Positions 23,515 through 38,089 of a DNA stretch of 38,089 nucleotides are shown here, piece after piece. Source of the DNA: a virus; the IMG/VR virus record IMGVR_UViG_3300021956_000028, positions 1 to 38,089 of that record; one strand, 5' to 3'. The position numbers and the translations under genes were made by a program. Every line of letters begins with the position of its first letter. Position 1 is the stretch's first letter. The notes below the pieces were generated by a model. The model did not search any database, was not told the origin of the DNA, and saw only the letters and a list, made by a program, of their open reading frames with translations.

Positions 23515-23749
23515 CTTTTTTCCTCCTGTCTTCGTTTGCGCGGCGAGCGTCAACGCCTTTCTTTTTTATCAACGCCGCCTCGTCCTTAGTATAAATCGAT
23601 TTACCCACGATCACGTTGCCTGCAACCCACACCTCTGCTGAGTAGGCATTGTTCTTGCATGACGGGCACCTGCGTTGCCGCCGGATGCCGCCTGGCTGTT
23701 GGGTGGTGTTGACTACATGGGTCTTGCTGCCGCAGTGCTGACACTTCAT
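23504..23749 (-). CDS. zinc-ribbon protein
   Basis: 81 aa from the ATG at 23749 (ATGA overlap with the upstream gene); a GTG at 23764 is a weaker alternative. The N-terminus MKCQHCGSKTHVVNTTQQPG and RRQRRCPSCKNNAYSAEVW has two CxxC pairs forming a zinc ribbon like those of NrdR and Ogr-type proteins. The remainder is Lys/Arg-rich (KKKGVDARRANEDRRKK). A DNA-binding or transcription-modifying role is plausible. No ATP-cone is present, so it is not NrdR itself. Confidence 0.75.
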   Translation of the reverse strand: MKCQHCGSKTHVVNTTQQPGGIRRQRRCPSCKNNAYSAEVWVAGNVIVGKSIYTKDEAALIKKKGVDARRANEDRRKKDAT

Positions 23750-23994
23750 TCTGGCCGCTCCCACGCCAAGTAGCCGCGAATTTTTTCGATACTCCAGCCG
23801 GTCTTGTCGTAAATCCGTAAAATCATTCCTGCTGACATCACGTTCCCTGAATATGTTGTTTCGCCATAGCGGCGCGCATCGTTGATTGGCGTTGGCGTTA
23901 TATCCAAAAACCGCGCCAGTTCAGCGTCACTTTTAAGCTGAAATTCTTCCTTAATTGTGTCAAGCAACGGATGTTTAACTCTAGGGTTTTTCAT
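23746..23994 (-). CDS. small helix-turn-helix regulator
   Basis: 82 aa. It contains HPLLDTIKEEFQLKSDAELA, then RFLDITPTPINDARRYG, a Cro/XRE-like helix-turn-helix (about 9-45), and a SAGMILRIYDKTGWSIEKIR stretch typical of a small phage regulator family. It probably binds DNA as a dimer. No sensor or protease-cleavage domain is attached, so it is not a classical lysogeny repressor. ATGA overlaps exist on both sides. Confidence 0.78.
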   Translation of the reverse strand: MKNPRVKHPLLDTIKEEFQLKSDAELARFLDITPTPINDARRYGETTYSGNVMSAGMILRIYDKTGWSIEKIRGYLAWERPE

Positions 23995-29432: not shown

Positions 29433-30074
29433 ATGTCCAATATGGTCACGTTCAAAGGTGCAAACCTTCCAGCAGTATCTACCCTCTCCACCGCACTGCG
29501 TTCGCTTGAAACCGTCGCAGGCCCAGCAGGTTCTGTCATCATCAAGATGGACAAGACCGGCCACTGGGTGTTCGGTGCTGACCAAACTGACGTCGAAGAA
29601 GACTCGACTTGGGCGGTCAACCCGTTCAGCTTCATCCACGGCTTTATCGCTTGGGGTGACGGCGAGGTGTTGGGCGAGAAGATGGTGTCGGTCTCCGAGC
29701 CGCTGCCTGAGATGGAAGCAGCACCGCCCAACGCCAAGCGTGGTTGGGAGTCGCAGATCGGCATGTCCTTGAAGTGCGTCTCTGGCGAAGATAAGGACAT
29801 GGAGGCGCGCTACACGGTGACGTCCGTCGGTGGTAAGAAGGCCGTGCAAGCTCTCGCGGTTGCAATTGCCGAGCAGGTTGAGAAGAACCAGGCCAAGCCC
29901 GTGCCTGTGGTGCGTCTCAAAAAAGACCACTACACGCACAAGTCGTATGGCCGCATCTACACGCCGGTCTTTGAGATCGTCGAGTTTGTGTCGATGGATG
30001 GTAAAGCAGATGAAGCCCCGGCTGAAGAAGCACCTGCAGCCGAAGCCGCACCTGCCCGCCGCCGTCGCGGCTAA
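29433..30074 (+). CDS. probable ssDNA-binding protein (DUF2815-like)
   Basis: 213 aa. The beta-rich core contains VFGADQTDVEEDSTWAVNPF, GFIAWGDGEVLGEKMVS and HYTHKSYGRIYTPVFEIVEF. The tail is acidic Glu/Ala-rich followed by RRRRG. Position between a DUF2800 nuclease and a family A polymerase is where phage single-strand binding proteins of the DUF2815 type are found; the acidic tail also suits an SSB. The end RRRRG is unusual, since SSB tails normally end hydrophobic-acidic. AGGAG precedes the ATG. Confidence 0.75.
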   Translation: MSNMVTFKGANLPAVSTLSTALRSLETVAGPAGSVIIKMDKTGHWVFGADQTDVEEDSTWAVNPFSFIHGFIAWGDGEVLGEKMVSVSEPLPEMEAAPPNAKRGWESQIGMSLKCVSGEDKDMEARYTVTSVGGKKAVQALAVAIAEQVEKNQAKPVPVVRLKKDHYTHKSYGRIYTPVFEIVEFVSMDGKADEAPAEEAPAAEAAPARRRRG

Positions 30075-30219: not shown

Positions 30220-32163
30220 ATGACAATACTCTGGCTTGACTTTGAAACCCGGTCCAAGTGCGACTTATCCTCTAAAGGGGTTTACAACTATGCCCAAGAT
30301 GGAACCACCGATGTACTTTGTATGTCCTACGCGTTTGACGACGATGACGTTGTCACCTGGACTTCCGATCAGCCGTTCCCTGACGCCGTTCGGCATCACA
30401 AGGGGCGAATCTATGCTCATAACGCTGCGTTCGAGCGCCTTATATTCTGGTACGTCCTACAAATTAATTTCGATCTCACGCAGTTCTATTGCACAGCGGC
30501 ACAAGCGCGTGCTAACTGCCTGCCTGGGTCTCTCGAAGACGTCGGACGAGCCATCAGCAGCCAAATGCGCAAAGACCACCGAGGTGGACAGCTTATCCGA
30601 CTACTTTCCATCCCTCGCGCTGATGGATCGTTTAACAATTCGCCAGAGCTAATGGCCGAGATGATCCGCTACTGCGAGCAGGACGTCAGAGCCATGCGCG
30701 CCATCAGTAAGGCCATGCGCCCGCTGTCGGATGAGGAGCTTGCCGACTACCATACGAACGAGCGCATCAACGACCGGGGCGTGCTGCTTGACCTGCCACT
30801 GGCACAAGCCGCCATTCGCTACGCGTCGGTCGAGCTTGAAGAGATCGAGACACTGGTCGCCGACCTGACCGAGGGTGCGATCAAGTCCGTGCGCAGCCCC
30901 AAGATGCGCCAGTGGGTGATCGATAGGGTCGGCCCACAAGCTTTAAAGATGATGGAGACATACAAGGACGGCGACTTGAAGTACAGTATCGACAAGTCCG
31001 TTCGTGCCAATTTACTGGCTTTTGCCGAGGAAAACCCCGATGAGATTCCGACCACTGTTGCGGACGTCATTCAATGCGCAGATGACCTTTGGGCGTCGTC
31101 GGTTGCGAAGTTCAGCCGCCTTGCGAGCCTGGCAGATGAAGACGATCAACGAGTACGAGGTGCTTTCGTATTTGCAGGAGGATCTGCCACCGGACGTGCT
31201 TCAAGCTATGGCGCGCAGGTTCACAACTTTACGCGCAAGTGCGCCAAAGAACCCGACGCAGTACGCCACGCTATGGTCCGTGGCCACAGCATCGTCCCAA
31301 GATTTGGAAAACGCGTTACGGATGTTCTCAAAGGAATGCTCCGGCCCGCACTGATTCCGGCGCCGGGTAAGCAGTTTGTCGTCGCCGATTGGTCAGCCGT
31401 CGAGGCACGGGTCACCGCGTGGGCGTCAGCCGACCCGCAGGCCGAGGACGTACTGCAGGTCTTCCGCGAGGGCCGCGACATCTACAAGCGTGAAGCCGCC
31501 GGCATCTACCGGGTCGCTGAAGACGCGGTCGACAAAGACCAGCGCCAGATCGGCAAGGTCGCGATTCTCTCACTTGGCTTTGGCGGCTCGATTGGCGCCT
31601 TCTCAGCGATGGGTCGCAATTACGGTGTCTTCATGCCTGAGTCGGATTCGCGTCGCATTGTAGACGCTTGGCGCCGCGCTAATGCGTGGGCGGTGCGTTA
31701 CTGGGAAAAGCTTGAGAGCGCCTACGCGCGGGCGCTACGCAATCCTAACCGCGAATTCTCAGCCGGTCGGGTCACCTATTTGTATGACGGTCAGCATCTT
31801 TGGTACGCGCTACCGTCCGGTCGCGTTTTGTGTTATCCGTTCGCCAAGTTTGAGAATGACGAGATCACGTACGTCAAAGCAGCCTGGAAGCCGGCAGCTG
31901 ACGCCAAAGAATGGCCACGGGCACGCTTGTGGCGCGGGCTCGCCTGTGAGAACATAACGCAAGCGATCGCCAACGATCTGCTACGGCACGCTTTACGCTC
32001 GCTCCCCGACGTAGTGCTGCACGTACATGACGAGATCGTAATGGAGACCGCCGACCCCGATGCACCCAATACCCTGCAACAAGTGATGTGCACGCCGCCT
32101 GAGTGGGCGGCCGGACTGCCTTTGTCGGCAGAGGTTGAAACCATGTCGAGGTATGGAAAATGA
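30220..32163 (+). CDS. DNA polymerase, family A with 3'-5' exonuclease
   Basis: 647 aa, a typical short phage Pol I-like enzyme. Exonuclease motifs: LDFET (D7, E9), AHNAAFE (66-72) and YCEQDV (151-156, D155). Polymerase motif A VADWSAVEARV (388-398, D390), motif B RQIGKVAILSLGFGG (442-456, in place of the usual RRxxKxxNFGxxYG), motif C HVHDE (601-605). No 5'-3' exonuclease domain. It copies the phage genome, with the primase-helicase two genes downstream. It overlaps the PAPS-reductase gene by 4 nt. Confidence 0.96.
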   Translation: MTILWLDFETRSKCDLSSKGVYNYAQDGTTDVLCMSYAFDDDDVVTWTSDQPFPDAVRHHKGRIYAHNAAFERLIFWYVLQINFDLTQFYCTAAQARANCLPGSLEDVGRAISSQMRKDHRGGQLIRLLSIPRADGSFNNSPELMAEMIRYCEQDVRAMRAISKAMRPLSDEELADYHTNERINDRGVLLDLPLAQAAIRYASVELEEIETLVADLTEGAIKSVRSPKMRQWVIDRVGPQALKMMETYKDGDLKYSIDKSVRANLLAFAEENPDEIPTTVADVIQCADDLWASSVAKFSRLASLADEDDQRVRGAFVFAGGSATGRASSYGAQVHNFTRKCAKEPDAVRHAMVRGHSIVPRFGKRVTDVLKGMLRPALIPAPGKQFVVADWSAVEARVTAWASADPQAEDVLQVFREGRDIYKREAAGIYRVAEDAVDKDQRQIGKVAILSLGFGGSIGAFSAMGRNYGVFMPESDSRRIVDAWRRANAWAVRYWEKLESAYARALRNPNREFSAGRVTYLYDGQHLWYALPSGRVLCYPFAKFENDEITYVKAAWKPAADAKEWPRARLWRGLACENITQAIANDLLRHALRSLPDVVLHVHDEIVMETADPDAPNTLQQVMCTPPEWAAGLPLSAEVETMSRYGK

Positions 32164-32861
32164 AACACGTTATCGGGTTATCTGGCGGGAAAGACAGTAC
32201 CGCTTTGGCATTGCGTTTGGCCGAAATTGAGCCGCGTGATTACGAATATATCTGCAACGAAACTGGCAACGAGCTGCCTGAGATGCACGCGCACTGGGCC
32301 AAGCTTGAGGAAATGCTAGGCAAACCAATCAAGCGGGTGCGGTACAAGCACGATTTGGAAGGCACGATTCGCGAGATGAATATGCTGCCAAGCGTGTTTG
32401 CGCGGTGGTGTACGCGAGTGCTGAAGATCGAGCCGACGATTGATTACATGGCCGAACTGCCCAAAGGCTCTGTGCTGTACGTCGGTCTGCGAGCAGACGA
32501 AGAAGAGCGCAAAGGGCTGTTTGGTGAAGACATCGCTATCCGGTTTCCGATGCGTGAGTGGGGCTGGCGTGAAGCGGATGTGTGGAAGTACCTCGACAGT
32601 CGCGGCGTGGCTATTCCTGCACGCACCGACTGCGCGTTTTGCCCGTATCAGCGTCTGGGCGAGTGGCGTGACTTGCACGACAAGTACCCGGTCATCTGGG
32701 CGCGCGGCGTGCAGCTGGAGAAGGACTTAGGCCATACGTTTCGCAGCCCAGGCCGCGATACATGGCCCGCTGATCTGGAGTCGCTGGGTGAAGAATTTAA
32801 AGCAGGACGTAAACTGCGGGCATACAAGCGTGATGCGTCCTGCCGGGTGTGTTCACTATAA
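32160..32861 (+). CDS. PAPS reductase / ATP-pyrophosphatase-like enzyme
   Basis: 233 aa. The N-type PP-loop SGGKDST (8-14) and the ARWCTRVLKIEP segment (about 80-91) place it in the PAPS reductase/DndC superfamily, enzymes that adenylate or handle sulfur on a substrate. Two further Cys pairs, TDCAFCPY (about 156-163) and SCRVCSL at the C-terminus, may bind metal or an Fe-S cluster. It starts at an ATGA overlap with the polymerase gene. The substrate is unknown: phage members have been proposed in nucleotide or DNA modification and in sulfur metabolism. Confidence 0.88.
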   Translation: MKHVIGLSGGKDSTALALRLAEIEPRDYEYICNETGNELPEMHAHWAKLEEMLGKPIKRVRYKHDLEGTIREMNMLPSVFARWCTRVLKIEPTIDYMAELPKGSVLYVGLRADEEERKGLFGEDIAIRFPMREWGWREADVWKYLDSRGVAIPARTDCAFCPYQRLGEWRDLHDKYPVIWARGVQLEKDLGHTFRSPGRDTWPADLESLGEEFKAGRKLRAYKRDASCRVCSL

Positions 32862-32909: not shown

Positions 32910-35225
32910 ATGGATTTCCTCGAATTTTATACTAATCTGGCCCCAGTGGGTGAGACTGCGCTCGTCATCCGTCAAAAGCCCAAGCTTAAAAACGGACAAA
33001 TTCAGACGCACCCAGACGGCGCTGTGATCTGCACATGGCCGGCTTACCTGCCAGACTACCCGACCAAGCCCGATTGGGCCATCTACGGCAACACCGCGTC
33101 GTTTGTGATTGACCGCTTCAAGGACGGCCATGTGTCTGCGTCCAAAGAGAATTGCGACTACGTGCTCGTCATGGTGTTGGACGACGTCGGTGACCCTGAG
33201 AAGGCGCCCAACATCCCGCCGCTTGCGCCCACATGGATCATGGAGACGTCGGAGGGGTCGTTCCAGTGGGGCTACGCGTTCAAGGATCAGCCGACGAAGG
33301 GCGAGTACGCCGCAGCCATTGACGCGATTATCAAGGCCGGCTACTGCGACCCAGGCGCGAATAACGCAGTGCGTAACTTCCGACTGCCGGGGTCGATCAA
33401 CATCAAGCCAGGCCGCGAGCTGTTCGCGTCGCGCTTGGTCGAGTTCCACCCGGACCGCGAGTACACCCTGCCCGAAATCTGCGACGCGCTTGGCGTCACG
33501 CCGTCCGAGCCATCATCGCTAGGCGTGCGTCCTATCCGACTGTCCGATGATGGGGCCGACGACGTGATGGCGTGGCTCTCGCATCAGGGCGTGCTGTTGT
33601 CTACGCCAAACACGCGAGGGTGGGCTGCAGTCATCTGCCCCAACAAGGACGAGCATACCGATGGCAACCCCGAAGGCGGCTACAGCCCATCGACCCGGTC
33701 CTACCGCTGCCTGCACTCGCACTGCGTCGATTTTGACTCGCACGCGTTCCTTGATTGGGTCGCAGCCAATGGTGGGCCAAAGCACGCGCCTGGACTGCGC
33801 GAAGAGCTATTAGCGGCGGTGATGGACCAGACGCTCTCAAAATTGCAGCCGACCGAGGCGTTTCCGGACAAGGGCGCCGAGGTAATTGCCGAGGTCGAGA
33901 AAAAACAACTGGATAGGGTGACAAAAGATGATTGGTACAAGCGTTTTGCGTACATTCAAAACGAAGATGCGTACTTTGATATGGATGATCGGCGCGAGAT
34001 TAGTCGCGGCACTTTTAACGCACTCTTTCGACACGTCACCTGTCATTCAATCCACCCGACAAAAACGGGTAAGCGCCGCATTGAGGCGTCAATTTGTTAT
34101 GACGAGAACCGGCAGGCCAAAAAAGCATTGACGATCGCGGGCATCACTTACGCCGCTGGCGAGACGGTGCTGGTGTCGCGTGAGGGGCAGGCATACGGTA
34201 ACCGCTGGGTCGACCACCGGCCAACAGCGGCCACCGGCAACGCAAAAATGTGGCTCGATCACGTCGAGCGCATGATCCCGGACCCTGTTGAGCGCAACCA
34301 TGTGCTAGACGTGATGGCGTACAAGCTTCAGAATCCGAACCGCAAGATCAATCACGCCGTACTGCACATCGGTCACCCAGGCTCTGGCAAGGACACCATG
34401 TGGCAGCCGTTCCTGTGGGGCATCGGCGGCGAGGCGCTCTCAAACGTGTCAATTGTGCGTAATGAGGAAATTCAATCCCAGTGGGGTTACGCATACGAGT
34501 CCGAGGTTATGGTCTTCGAGGAACTACGCCAGAGCGAGGCGAAGGACCGCCGCGCGCTCGAGAACCATCTGAAACCCATCATTGCAGCGCCGCCAGACTT
34601 CCTGCAGGTCAACCGCAAGGGCCTGCACCCGTATCAGGCGCTAAACCGCATTTTCGTTCTGGCGTTCTCGAATGAGCGAGTGCCCATCTCCGTGTCGGGC
34701 GACGATCGCCGGTGGTTCGTGACGTACTCCGAGGCGCCGAGGATGACTGAGCAGGAAGCCTGCGCGATTTGGGACTGGTACAAGGCCGGCGGGCTGGCTG
34801 TGGCTGCCGGCTGGCTTTATGAGCGTGACGTATCGCGGTTTAACCCCGGCGCCACTCCACCGCTGACAGAGGCGAAAATTATCATGGTAGAGCAGGGCAG
34901 GTCGACCGCCGAATCCTATTTGGTCGAGATGATCGAGCGCCGCCTGGGCGAGTTCTCTGCAGGTGTCGTGGCAGCGCCGTTTTATAGCCTGTGTGACCGC
35001 TTGCAAGGTGGGGCGCCCACGAACACGCGTGTGGTACAGCAGGCGCTATTGCACGCGCTGAAAGAAGCCGGCTGGGTCGATATGGGGCGCATAAAGTCGC
35101 GAGAGTTTGACACCCGCAAGCACATTATCTGCGCGCCAGAACTCGCTGCTACTGCCACGAAGTCAGAATTGCGCCGCATGGTCGAGGAAACGCCGCCGCC
35201 GTCAGCGGTTCGCCTAGTCAAATAA
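32910..35225 (+). CDS. primase-helicase (RepB-like primase plus SF3-like helicase)
   Basis: 771 aa. The N-terminal third is a primase of RepB/archaeo-eukaryotic type: VLVMVLDDVGD (85-95) with metal-binding acids, WIMETSEGSFQWGYAF (109-124) and VRNFRLPGSIN (154-164). A Cys/His region (C243, H249, C267, H271 or C272) resembles a zinc finger. The C-terminal part is a DUF5906-type ATPase: Walker A GHPGSGKDT (488-496), Walker B VMVFEEL (533-539) and LAFSNERVPISV with the downstream Arg-rich DDRRWFV. It lays primers and unwinds DNA for the family A polymerase. AAGGA precedes the ATG. Confidence 0.92.
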   Translation: MDFLEFYTNLAPVGETALVIRQKPKLKNGQIQTHPDGAVICTWPAYLPDYPTKPDWAIYGNTASFVIDRFKDGHVSASKENCDYVLVMVLDDVGDPEKAPNIPPLAPTWIMETSEGSFQWGYAFKDQPTKGEYAAAIDAIIKAGYCDPGANNAVRNFRLPGSINIKPGRELFASRLVEFHPDREYTLPEICDALGVTPSEPSSLGVRPIRLSDDGADDVMAWLSHQGVLLSTPNTRGWAAVICPNKDEHTDGNPEGGYSPSTRSYRCLHSHCVDFDSHAFLDWVAANGGPKHAPGLREELLAAVMDQTLSKLQPTEAFPDKGAEVIAEVEKKQLDRVTKDDWYKRFAYIQNEDAYFDMDDRREISRGTFNALFRHVTCHSIHPTKTGKRRIEASICYDENRQAKKALTIAGITYAAGETVLVSREGQAYGNRWVDHRPTAATGNAKMWLDHVERMIPDPVERNHVLDVMAYKLQNPNRKINHAVLHIGHPGSGKDTMWQPFLWGIGGEALSNVSIVRNEEIQSQWGYAYESEVMVFEELRQSEAKDRRALENHLKPIIAAPPDFLQVNRKGLHPYQALNRIFVLAFSNERVPISVSGDDRRWFVTYSEAPRMTEQEACAIWDWYKAGGLAVAAGWLYERDVSRFNPGATPPLTEAKIIMVEQGRSTAESYLVEMIERRLGEFSAGVVAAPFYSLCDRLQGGAPTNTRVVQQALLHALKEAGWVDMGRIKSREFDTRKHIICAPELAATATKSELRRMVEETPPPSAVRLVK

Positions 35226-36195: not shown

Positions 36196-36350
36196 AGCGC
36201 TACTCCGTGAGTTTCGATTGTCGGAATTTGGCGCGCCGGTACGGGCACGCGCCGTGTGATATACCGGCCAGTGGCCGGCGGATAGTCAAGCCAGCGGATT
36301 ACTTCATTGAAGCAGTCCAACTGGCCGTACTGCAGGCGATAGCGCATCAT
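36189..36350 (-). CDS. hypothetical basic protein
   Basis: 53 aa: MMRYRLQYGQLDCFNEVIRW, then LDYPPATGRYITRRVPVPAR. ATGA overlap with the gp88-like gene upstream supports translation; a second ATG follows directly. No family recognised. It probably belongs to the same early transcript. Confidence 0.6.
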   Translation of the reverse strand: MMRYRLQYGQLDCFNEVIRWLDYPPATGRYITRRVPVPARQIPTIETHGVALW

Positions 36351-36991
36351 GCTGCCAATTTGATGCGGATGACTTTATTCATCTTGACGCCGTGCGCCGG
36401 ATACGCAATCACCTTGATTTTTTTATCGTAGCAGGCACGACATGGGCCACAAGCTCCGCCGTTGTCATAAGCGCCGCACAATGTCATGCCACGCTTGACA
36501 TCGTCGGGTGTCGGGATAATGACGCTACCATGCAAACCGCGCGTATATTGGCCAGTGACGCTGTCGGATGAAAACCGCACGCATACATTTTTCAGCGCCT
36601 GCATTTCGGCCAGTACCTGCCGAAATTTCGGGAATTTGTGCATGCGTGTCGGCAGCCAATGTTTCACCCATGGCGTGCGACGCATGACCTCGAGAATCTT
36701 TTCGGCCAGCGCCAGTGTGTACATGTCGCCGCTGTCAAACCAACGAAAATAGCGGTCCTTGTCTAATTCGTCGACCATATCGTCGCACCATTCGATCCGC
36801 TGCCAATCCTCTTTATTGTGGCGCCGTGGCGCCTTGACGTTTTCAAACCTATAGTTGCCCGTGGTGGCATAACAGCCAGCGCATGCGTCGACTAGCTGGC
36901 CAGGCGCCGCGATTGATCCTGGGCACGTCTCGAGCGCCTGAAGTGACCATGAGCGCACGCCGTCAAGTTTTGAAGTAACAGAGATTTTCAT
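36347..36991 (-). CDS. gene-88-like cysteine-rich phage protein
   Basis: 214 aa. Segments ETCPGSIA, CAGCYATTGNYRFENV, RWFDSGDMYTLALAEKIL, HWLPTRMHKFPKF, CVRFSSDSV and the C-terminal CGPCRACYDKKIKVIAYPAH are those of the gp88 family first named in mycobacteriophages. Cys pairs (CxxCYA near the N-terminus and CGPCRACY near the end) suggest an Fe-S or zinc centre, and the overall GD...PTR order recalls radical-SAM-like barrels, but the function is not established. It overlaps the next gene and the upstream gene by 4 nt. Confidence 0.82.
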   Translation of the reverse strand: MKISVTSKLDGVRSWSLQALETCPGSIAAPGQLVDACAGCYATTGNYRFENVKAPRRHNKEDWQRIEWCDDMVDELDKDRYFRWFDSGDMYTLALAEKILEVMRRTPWVKHWLPTRMHKFPKFRQVLAEMQALKNVCVRFSSDSVTGQYTRGLHGSVIIPTPDDVKRGMTLCGAYDNGGACGPCRACYDKKIKVIAYPAHGVKMNKVIRIKLAA

Positions 36992-37774: not shown

Positions 37775-38089
37775 AGAATATTTTGCATTTATTTTTGTGG
37801 GTCATTTGGGCGGTTTGTGGCCTACAAAATCCAGCGTGATGACCCACGGCGAAACCTAGTCTGCGAGCGGCTTTTGGCTATTTGTGGGCAATGTGACAGT
37901 AAATGTTATCAGCTGATTTTTAAGTTTAATTTTGTTATCATTATGGCAATACTGTCAGGAATAGGGCCGCGTTTAAAGAGCCGGCAGCGATTTTTTTCCA
38001 TGGTCCACATGGCCCACATTGCCCACATCTCAAAATGACAACAAAAAAAGTTATCCACAGATTTGGTAGCATTTTAGTAACAAGTTAGT
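37775..38089. other. non-coding control region with 9-mer repeats and DnaA box
   Basis: No credible gene. It holds TGTGG-type 9-mers (37796-37804, 37814-37822), an inverted copy TGTGGGCAATGTG (37883-37895), and three tandem 9-mers TGGTCCACA, TGGCCCACA and TTGCCCACA (38001-38027) whose core GCCCACATTGCCCACA (38012-38027) recurs at 60-75. A perfect DnaA box TTATCCACA lies at 38051-38059. If the genome is circularly permuted, this region is continuous with 1-93 before the terminase gene. A replication origin, packaging site or operator array are all possible. Confidence 0.55.

Follow-up and report, generated by a model that had tools for sequence, protein, structure and literature searches.

Candidate replication-origin iterons of a freshwater phage co-vary with residues in the predicted wing of its primase-helicase

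The short repeats at the two ends of a freshwater phage contig are best explained as iterons of the phage replication origin that would be bound by the C-terminal domain of the phage's own primase-helicase, and across about 100 related phages the repeat sequence and two amino acids of this protein changed together. The analysed window comprised the whole of IMG/VR virus record IMGVR_UViG_3300021956_000028 (linear, 38,089 nucleotides). A sequence-only reading had proposed that 9-mers in direct and inverted orientation at both window ends, clustered between the early promoter and the terminase gene, may mark an origin, a terminase pac site or a regulator array, and that the ends would join if the genome is circularly permuted. 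The observation itself was confirmed. In contrast, its interpretation was only partly supported, since the origin was strongly favoured among the three options, whereas the best-matching reader of the repeats was neither the small terminase (TerS) nor the HTH protein that it had named.

The sequence GCCCACATTGCCCACA occurred exactly at 60–75 and 38012–38027 and nowhere else in the window. The right copy was preceded by a third tandem unit (GTCCACATG, 38003–38011), such that 38003–38029 (+) comprised three tandem direct units, GTCCACATG, GCCCACATT and GCCCACATC. Inverted copies were found on the minus strand at 37883–37895 (TGTGGGCAATGTG) and, weaker and degenerate, at 37796–37803 (TGTGGGTC) and 37816–37822 (TGTGGCC), and a direct GACCCAC, not listed in the sequence-only reading, was located at 37841–37847 (+). 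At the left end, two tandem direct units (GCCCACATT GCCCACACT; 60–77, +) lay just upstream of the terS −10 element. Over the whole window, the bare 9-mer with one mismatch was no commoner than in shuffled sequences (11 against 9.1), and thus only the clustering was significant: eight cores of the 9-bp unit occurred in the 482-bp non-coding junction, against a mean of 0.18 and a maximum of 3 in 20,000 Markov simulations. The stretch between the inverted and the tandem direct sets (37896–37950) was AT-rich (65%–73% AT in windows over 37881–37980) and is a candidate DNA unwinding element. A perfect DnaA box (TTATCCACA; 38051–38059, +) followed about 22 bp after the array. An ORF over the array (37817–38038), which reads MVHMAHIAHI from the 9-bp period, was considered spurious rather than a gene.

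Comparison with relatives showed that the two window ends adjoin. About 160 fetched contigs (L-numbers below denote such relatives) carried a close TerS relative, many of them in the contig interior, and in the most suitable of these, L127, the homologues of the right and left window ends were 164 bp apart. This shows adjacency, not circular permutation of virion DNA. The missing piece was an array of GTTAGTGAGTGCTCACTAAC-like palindromic repeats followed by a G-rich block and CCGGTCACGnnnACGGAGG, and the window contig probably broke at the repeats. Upstream of terS (about −260 to −130) in L127, L126, L144, L137, L160 and L040, three to eight such palindromic repeats (variants GTTAGTGACCACTAAC) were found between the iterons and terS; the window contig ends at the first unit of this array. 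At about −130 to −70 from terS, relatives carried a G-rich run (GGGGGGTGGGGGG) followed by the strongly conserved CCGGTCACGnnnACGGAGG and a T-rich stretch. The position next to terS, the adjoining ends and these elements in the same intergenic region could point to a pac or cos site read by TerS. However, contig ends in relatives were scattered, giving no sign of a fixed packaging start, and TerS remained about 90% identical across phages with different units, with none of its columns tracking the unit type. A packaging function of the 9-mers is therefore unsupported and very unlikely; if there is a packaging site, the conserved ACGGAGG block is the better candidate.

The exact 9-mer was not conserved. 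Its absence from close relatives had been set beforehand as a refuting condition, and it was indeed often absent, but a different 9-mer occupied the same positions. Each phage had its own version (GCCCACA, GTCCACA, GACCCAC, GCCAACA, GCCTACA, GACTAAC, GACGTGC and others), which was largely shared among the copies within one phage. The layout was kept: inverted copies, one direct copy, inverted copies, an AT-rich spacer, tandem direct copies and usually a perfect DnaA box. This box was present in 42 of 48 near relatives (a control 9-mer in 0), although only 12 of 118 far relatives had the perfect box. The units next to terS were present with the cognate unit in some relatives and absent in others. 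In L143 and L023, an extra stretch with an apparent small leftward ORF and TAACGTTA-like repeats was inserted in the iteron region next to a DnaA box. Because the units of the window phage resemble the DnaA box (TTGCCCACA differs from TTATCCACA at two positions), we considered whether they are degenerate host DnaA boxes. This is highly unlikely, as the units in relatives become GACTAAC, GACGTGC or GCCAACA, unlike any DnaA box and not matching TTATNCACA, while the TTATCCACA box stays.

The protein that reads the unit should vary with it. The candidate was the primase-helicase (32910–35225, +; 771 aa; primase phrog_1156, DUF5906 helicase), because SaPI Rep helicases recognise origin iterons with their C-terminal domain (PMC7581432). 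With 80 relatives, sliding-window identity singled out residues 710–754 (partial correlation 0.43 and 0.40; all other windows 0.21 or less), and the alignment showed a segment, GRIKSREFDTRKHIICAP in the window, that changes with the unit. Two further scans brought the set to 166 proteins. For typing, close variants were grouped (YCCA joins CCCA and TCCA, and CTAM joins CTAA and ACTA). On 98 non-redundant typed genomes, the two of 771 columns that associated best with unit type after removing overall identity were 729 (0.69) and 734 (0.63), followed by 730 (0.41), also in the wing, and 434 (0.38). K729 went with a YCCA unit in 59 of 59 genomes, whereas other residues did so in 12 of 39. Within YCCA, column 736 best separated CCCA from TCCA (R736, 14 to 1; K736, 11 to 37).

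The co-variation was next examined across lineages (INDEPENDENCE). On a tree built without residues 715–750, the unit type needed 24 changes and was almost as scattered as shuffled labels. In 15 independent pairs on supported branches that differed in having a YCCA unit, a basic residue (K/R/H) at 729 went the same way in about 13.6 and the opposite way in 0 (p about 1e-4), and M729 followed the CTAA/ACTA types in 7 of 8 with none opposed (p 0.016). Among pairs of primases differing at 10–80 positions outside the 14-residue segment 728–741, pairs with different units differed at 5.2 of the 14 positions on average and pairs with the same unit at 1.9, although these pairs are not independent. 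The cleanest case was L227 and L228, which differed at 18 of 772 positions, seven of them in this segment (p = 3e-9), and carried GTCCACA and GACGTGC iterons, respectively. A rule fixed on the first 89 proteins was right for 47 of 48 non-redundant held-out genomes that it covered and whose unit could be typed; seven more that it covered had no array or an untypable one. A few phages broke the rule. L006 has a CCAA-type primase differing by three residues from that of L223 (GCCAACA type), but its intergenic region is mostly GACCCAC, like L196, with a few GCCAACAT left; L206 has the R729 wing but GCCCACATT; and L319/L244 and L312 have A729/S734 with CCCA units. Recent recombination or assembly chimerism could explain these exceptions. 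Some genomes with a typical wing had no clear array (L341, L347 and L348), and some distant genomes showed no recognisable array.

In the same genomes, no column of TerS (best 0.28, against 0.71 for primase column 729), TerL (0.42), PolA (0.42) or the conserved protein at 29433–30074 (0.39) came near the primase columns (column 729, 0.63–0.73 in these comparisons). Columns of the exonuclease reached 0.62, but 27 of its 32 genomes belonged to one type and this control is not informative. An alternative is an operator array of a Cro/CI-like repressor or activator controlling the divergent early promoter and the terS promoter, with specificity switching as in immunity groups. A perfect sigma-70 promoter for the leftward early genes (TTGACA-16-TATAAT, 12 of 12; minus strand, 37774–37747) lies beside the first inverted unit, two units abut the terS −10, and rapid switching with shared internal units resembles immunity types. 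However, no conserved small regulator was found: the HTH gene (23746–23994) proposed as a reader of the repeats was detected in only one of 98 representative genomes, the window itself, although many fetched loci do not reach that part of the genome. Moreover, the unit type tracked the wing of a replication protein better than any column of the other proteins with adequate sampling. This alternative therefore seems unlikely, although a dual role of the primase-helicase as initiator and repressor cannot be excluded.

AlphaFold2 predicted a winged-helix fold for the C-terminus (residues 666–748; 34905–35153, +; pLDDT about 90 in this domain), with helices at 666–676, 691–701 and 710–719 and strands at 686–688, 723–728 and 737–741. 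Helix 710–719 occupied the recognition-helix position, and the wing loop (residues 729–736, including K729, D734 and R736; 35094–35117, +) lay between the last two strands. The code residues are therefore in the predicted wing, while the recognition helix is strongly conserved and presumably reads the constant part of the unit. The predicted helicase region matched the NrS-1 primase-polymerase C-terminal region (6k9c, E 5e-16; the best PDB fold match) and SaPI5 primase-helicase (7ola). The isolated C-terminal domain matched PDB winged helices (PadR, MarR and RTP) only weakly, and a PDB sequence search with this domain gave no meaningful hit.

Taken together, we consider with high confidence that the 9-bp units are iterons of the phage replication origin, bound by the C-terminal winged-helix domain of the primase-helicase, whose wing loop would read the variable bases. 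In this view, the protein would assemble on the inverted set (37796–37895) and the tandem direct set (38003–38029), the AT-rich stretch between them would open, possibly with DnaA, and the protein would load as a hexameric helicase and prime. The two units upstream of terS are probably extra binding sites, perhaps tying late-gene transcription to replication. The terS −10 (TAATAT, 82–87) ends six bases before the ATG at 94, and TAATAT/TTACCAT-like elements keep a similar spacing in relatives, suggesting that terS mRNA may be leaderless. The analysis established the repeats, their layout, the adjacency of the window ends, the co-variation with the wing residues and the predicted fold, whereas physical binding, unwinding, origin firing and the role of the terS-proximal copies are inferred. 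Cumulative GC skew did not turn at this region (extremes at 28.6 and 6.5 kb) and was uninformative for origin mapping.

SaPI/PICI elements with Rep or fused Pri-Rep are among the closest known systems (Ubeda et al. 2007, as cited in PMC7581432; PMC6092414). SaPI Rep and SCCmec Cch2 bind origin direct repeats with their C-terminal domains (PMC7581432), and PICI origins consist of two iteron sets flanking an AT-rich region beside a pri-rep gene (PMC6092414), the plan also found here on the 3′ side of the putative initiator gene. In contrast to PICIs, the array is not immediately 3′ of this gene but about 2.6 kb away across a leftward gene block, a DnaA box is present, and the window is not a satellite, as it carries terminase, P22-type coat and other virion genes, with no integrase seen. 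The residue-level wing code and its repeated switching are further differences. The P4 alpha protein likewise combines primase and helicase in one protein and uses short iterons in both orientations (ori/crr); it has a C-terminal winged-helix origin-binding domain. Here, a winged-helix fold was predicted, but the C-terminal domain had no sequence match to a PDB chain, P4 alpha was not among the top 50 fold hits for this weakly matching domain, and the unit sequence was unrelated. Lambda O is a phage initiator with type-specific iterons and an AT-rich element, but it is not a primase-helicase and its origin lies inside its own gene. NrS-1 encodes a phage PrimPol with sequence preference, but has two copies of an 8-nt template recognition sequence rather than an iteron array, and its recognition basis was stated to be unknown (PMC7102993). 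MW202483 (Podoviridae sp. ctNMl277, circular, 38,801 bp, Manatee Spring) has a 50% identical primase-helicase, P22-type coat and portal, a terminase next to the region and its own 9-bp-period array there (ACCAACACT), with a different repeat and a different wing (F and S at the two code positions, as read from the sequence). Typical auxiliary genes of the window included a PAPS-reductase-family protein between PolA and the primase (32160–32861) and a GP88-family protein on the other strand (36347–36991). A scan of genome contigs returned only one MAG fragment, from a Lake Erken gammaproteobacterial bin, and did not identify the host.

Iteron origins and self-recognising primase-helicases are known, whereas the wing code and the frequency of its switching are new here; no report of the origin of this phage group or of a wing-residue code with repeated switching was found in the open-access literature searched, which is only partial. 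A broader reading, somewhat more likely than not, is that a large family of freshwater phages carries a freely switching origin-specificity system, in which two or three wing residues (729, 734 and 736) set which 9-bp iteron is read and type switches (24 on the present tree) occur between otherwise nearly identical phages. This would be a lytic-phage counterpart of plasmid incompatibility types. The pace of switching raises the question of what drives it, such as decoy origins carried by satellites, co-infecting or competing phages, or mosaic recombination; ectopic copies of lambda ori block lambda (PMC4488673), and decoy origins are therefore one possible, though speculative, pressure. Initiator–origin specificity is a classic problem with few natural series of paired protein and DNA variants. 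Over 100 metagenomic phages supply such a series here, with near-identical proteins that differ mainly in the wing and carry different sites, such that a winged-helix recognition code becomes directly testable. The series also gives a simple way to find origins and predict cross-replication between phages from sequence.
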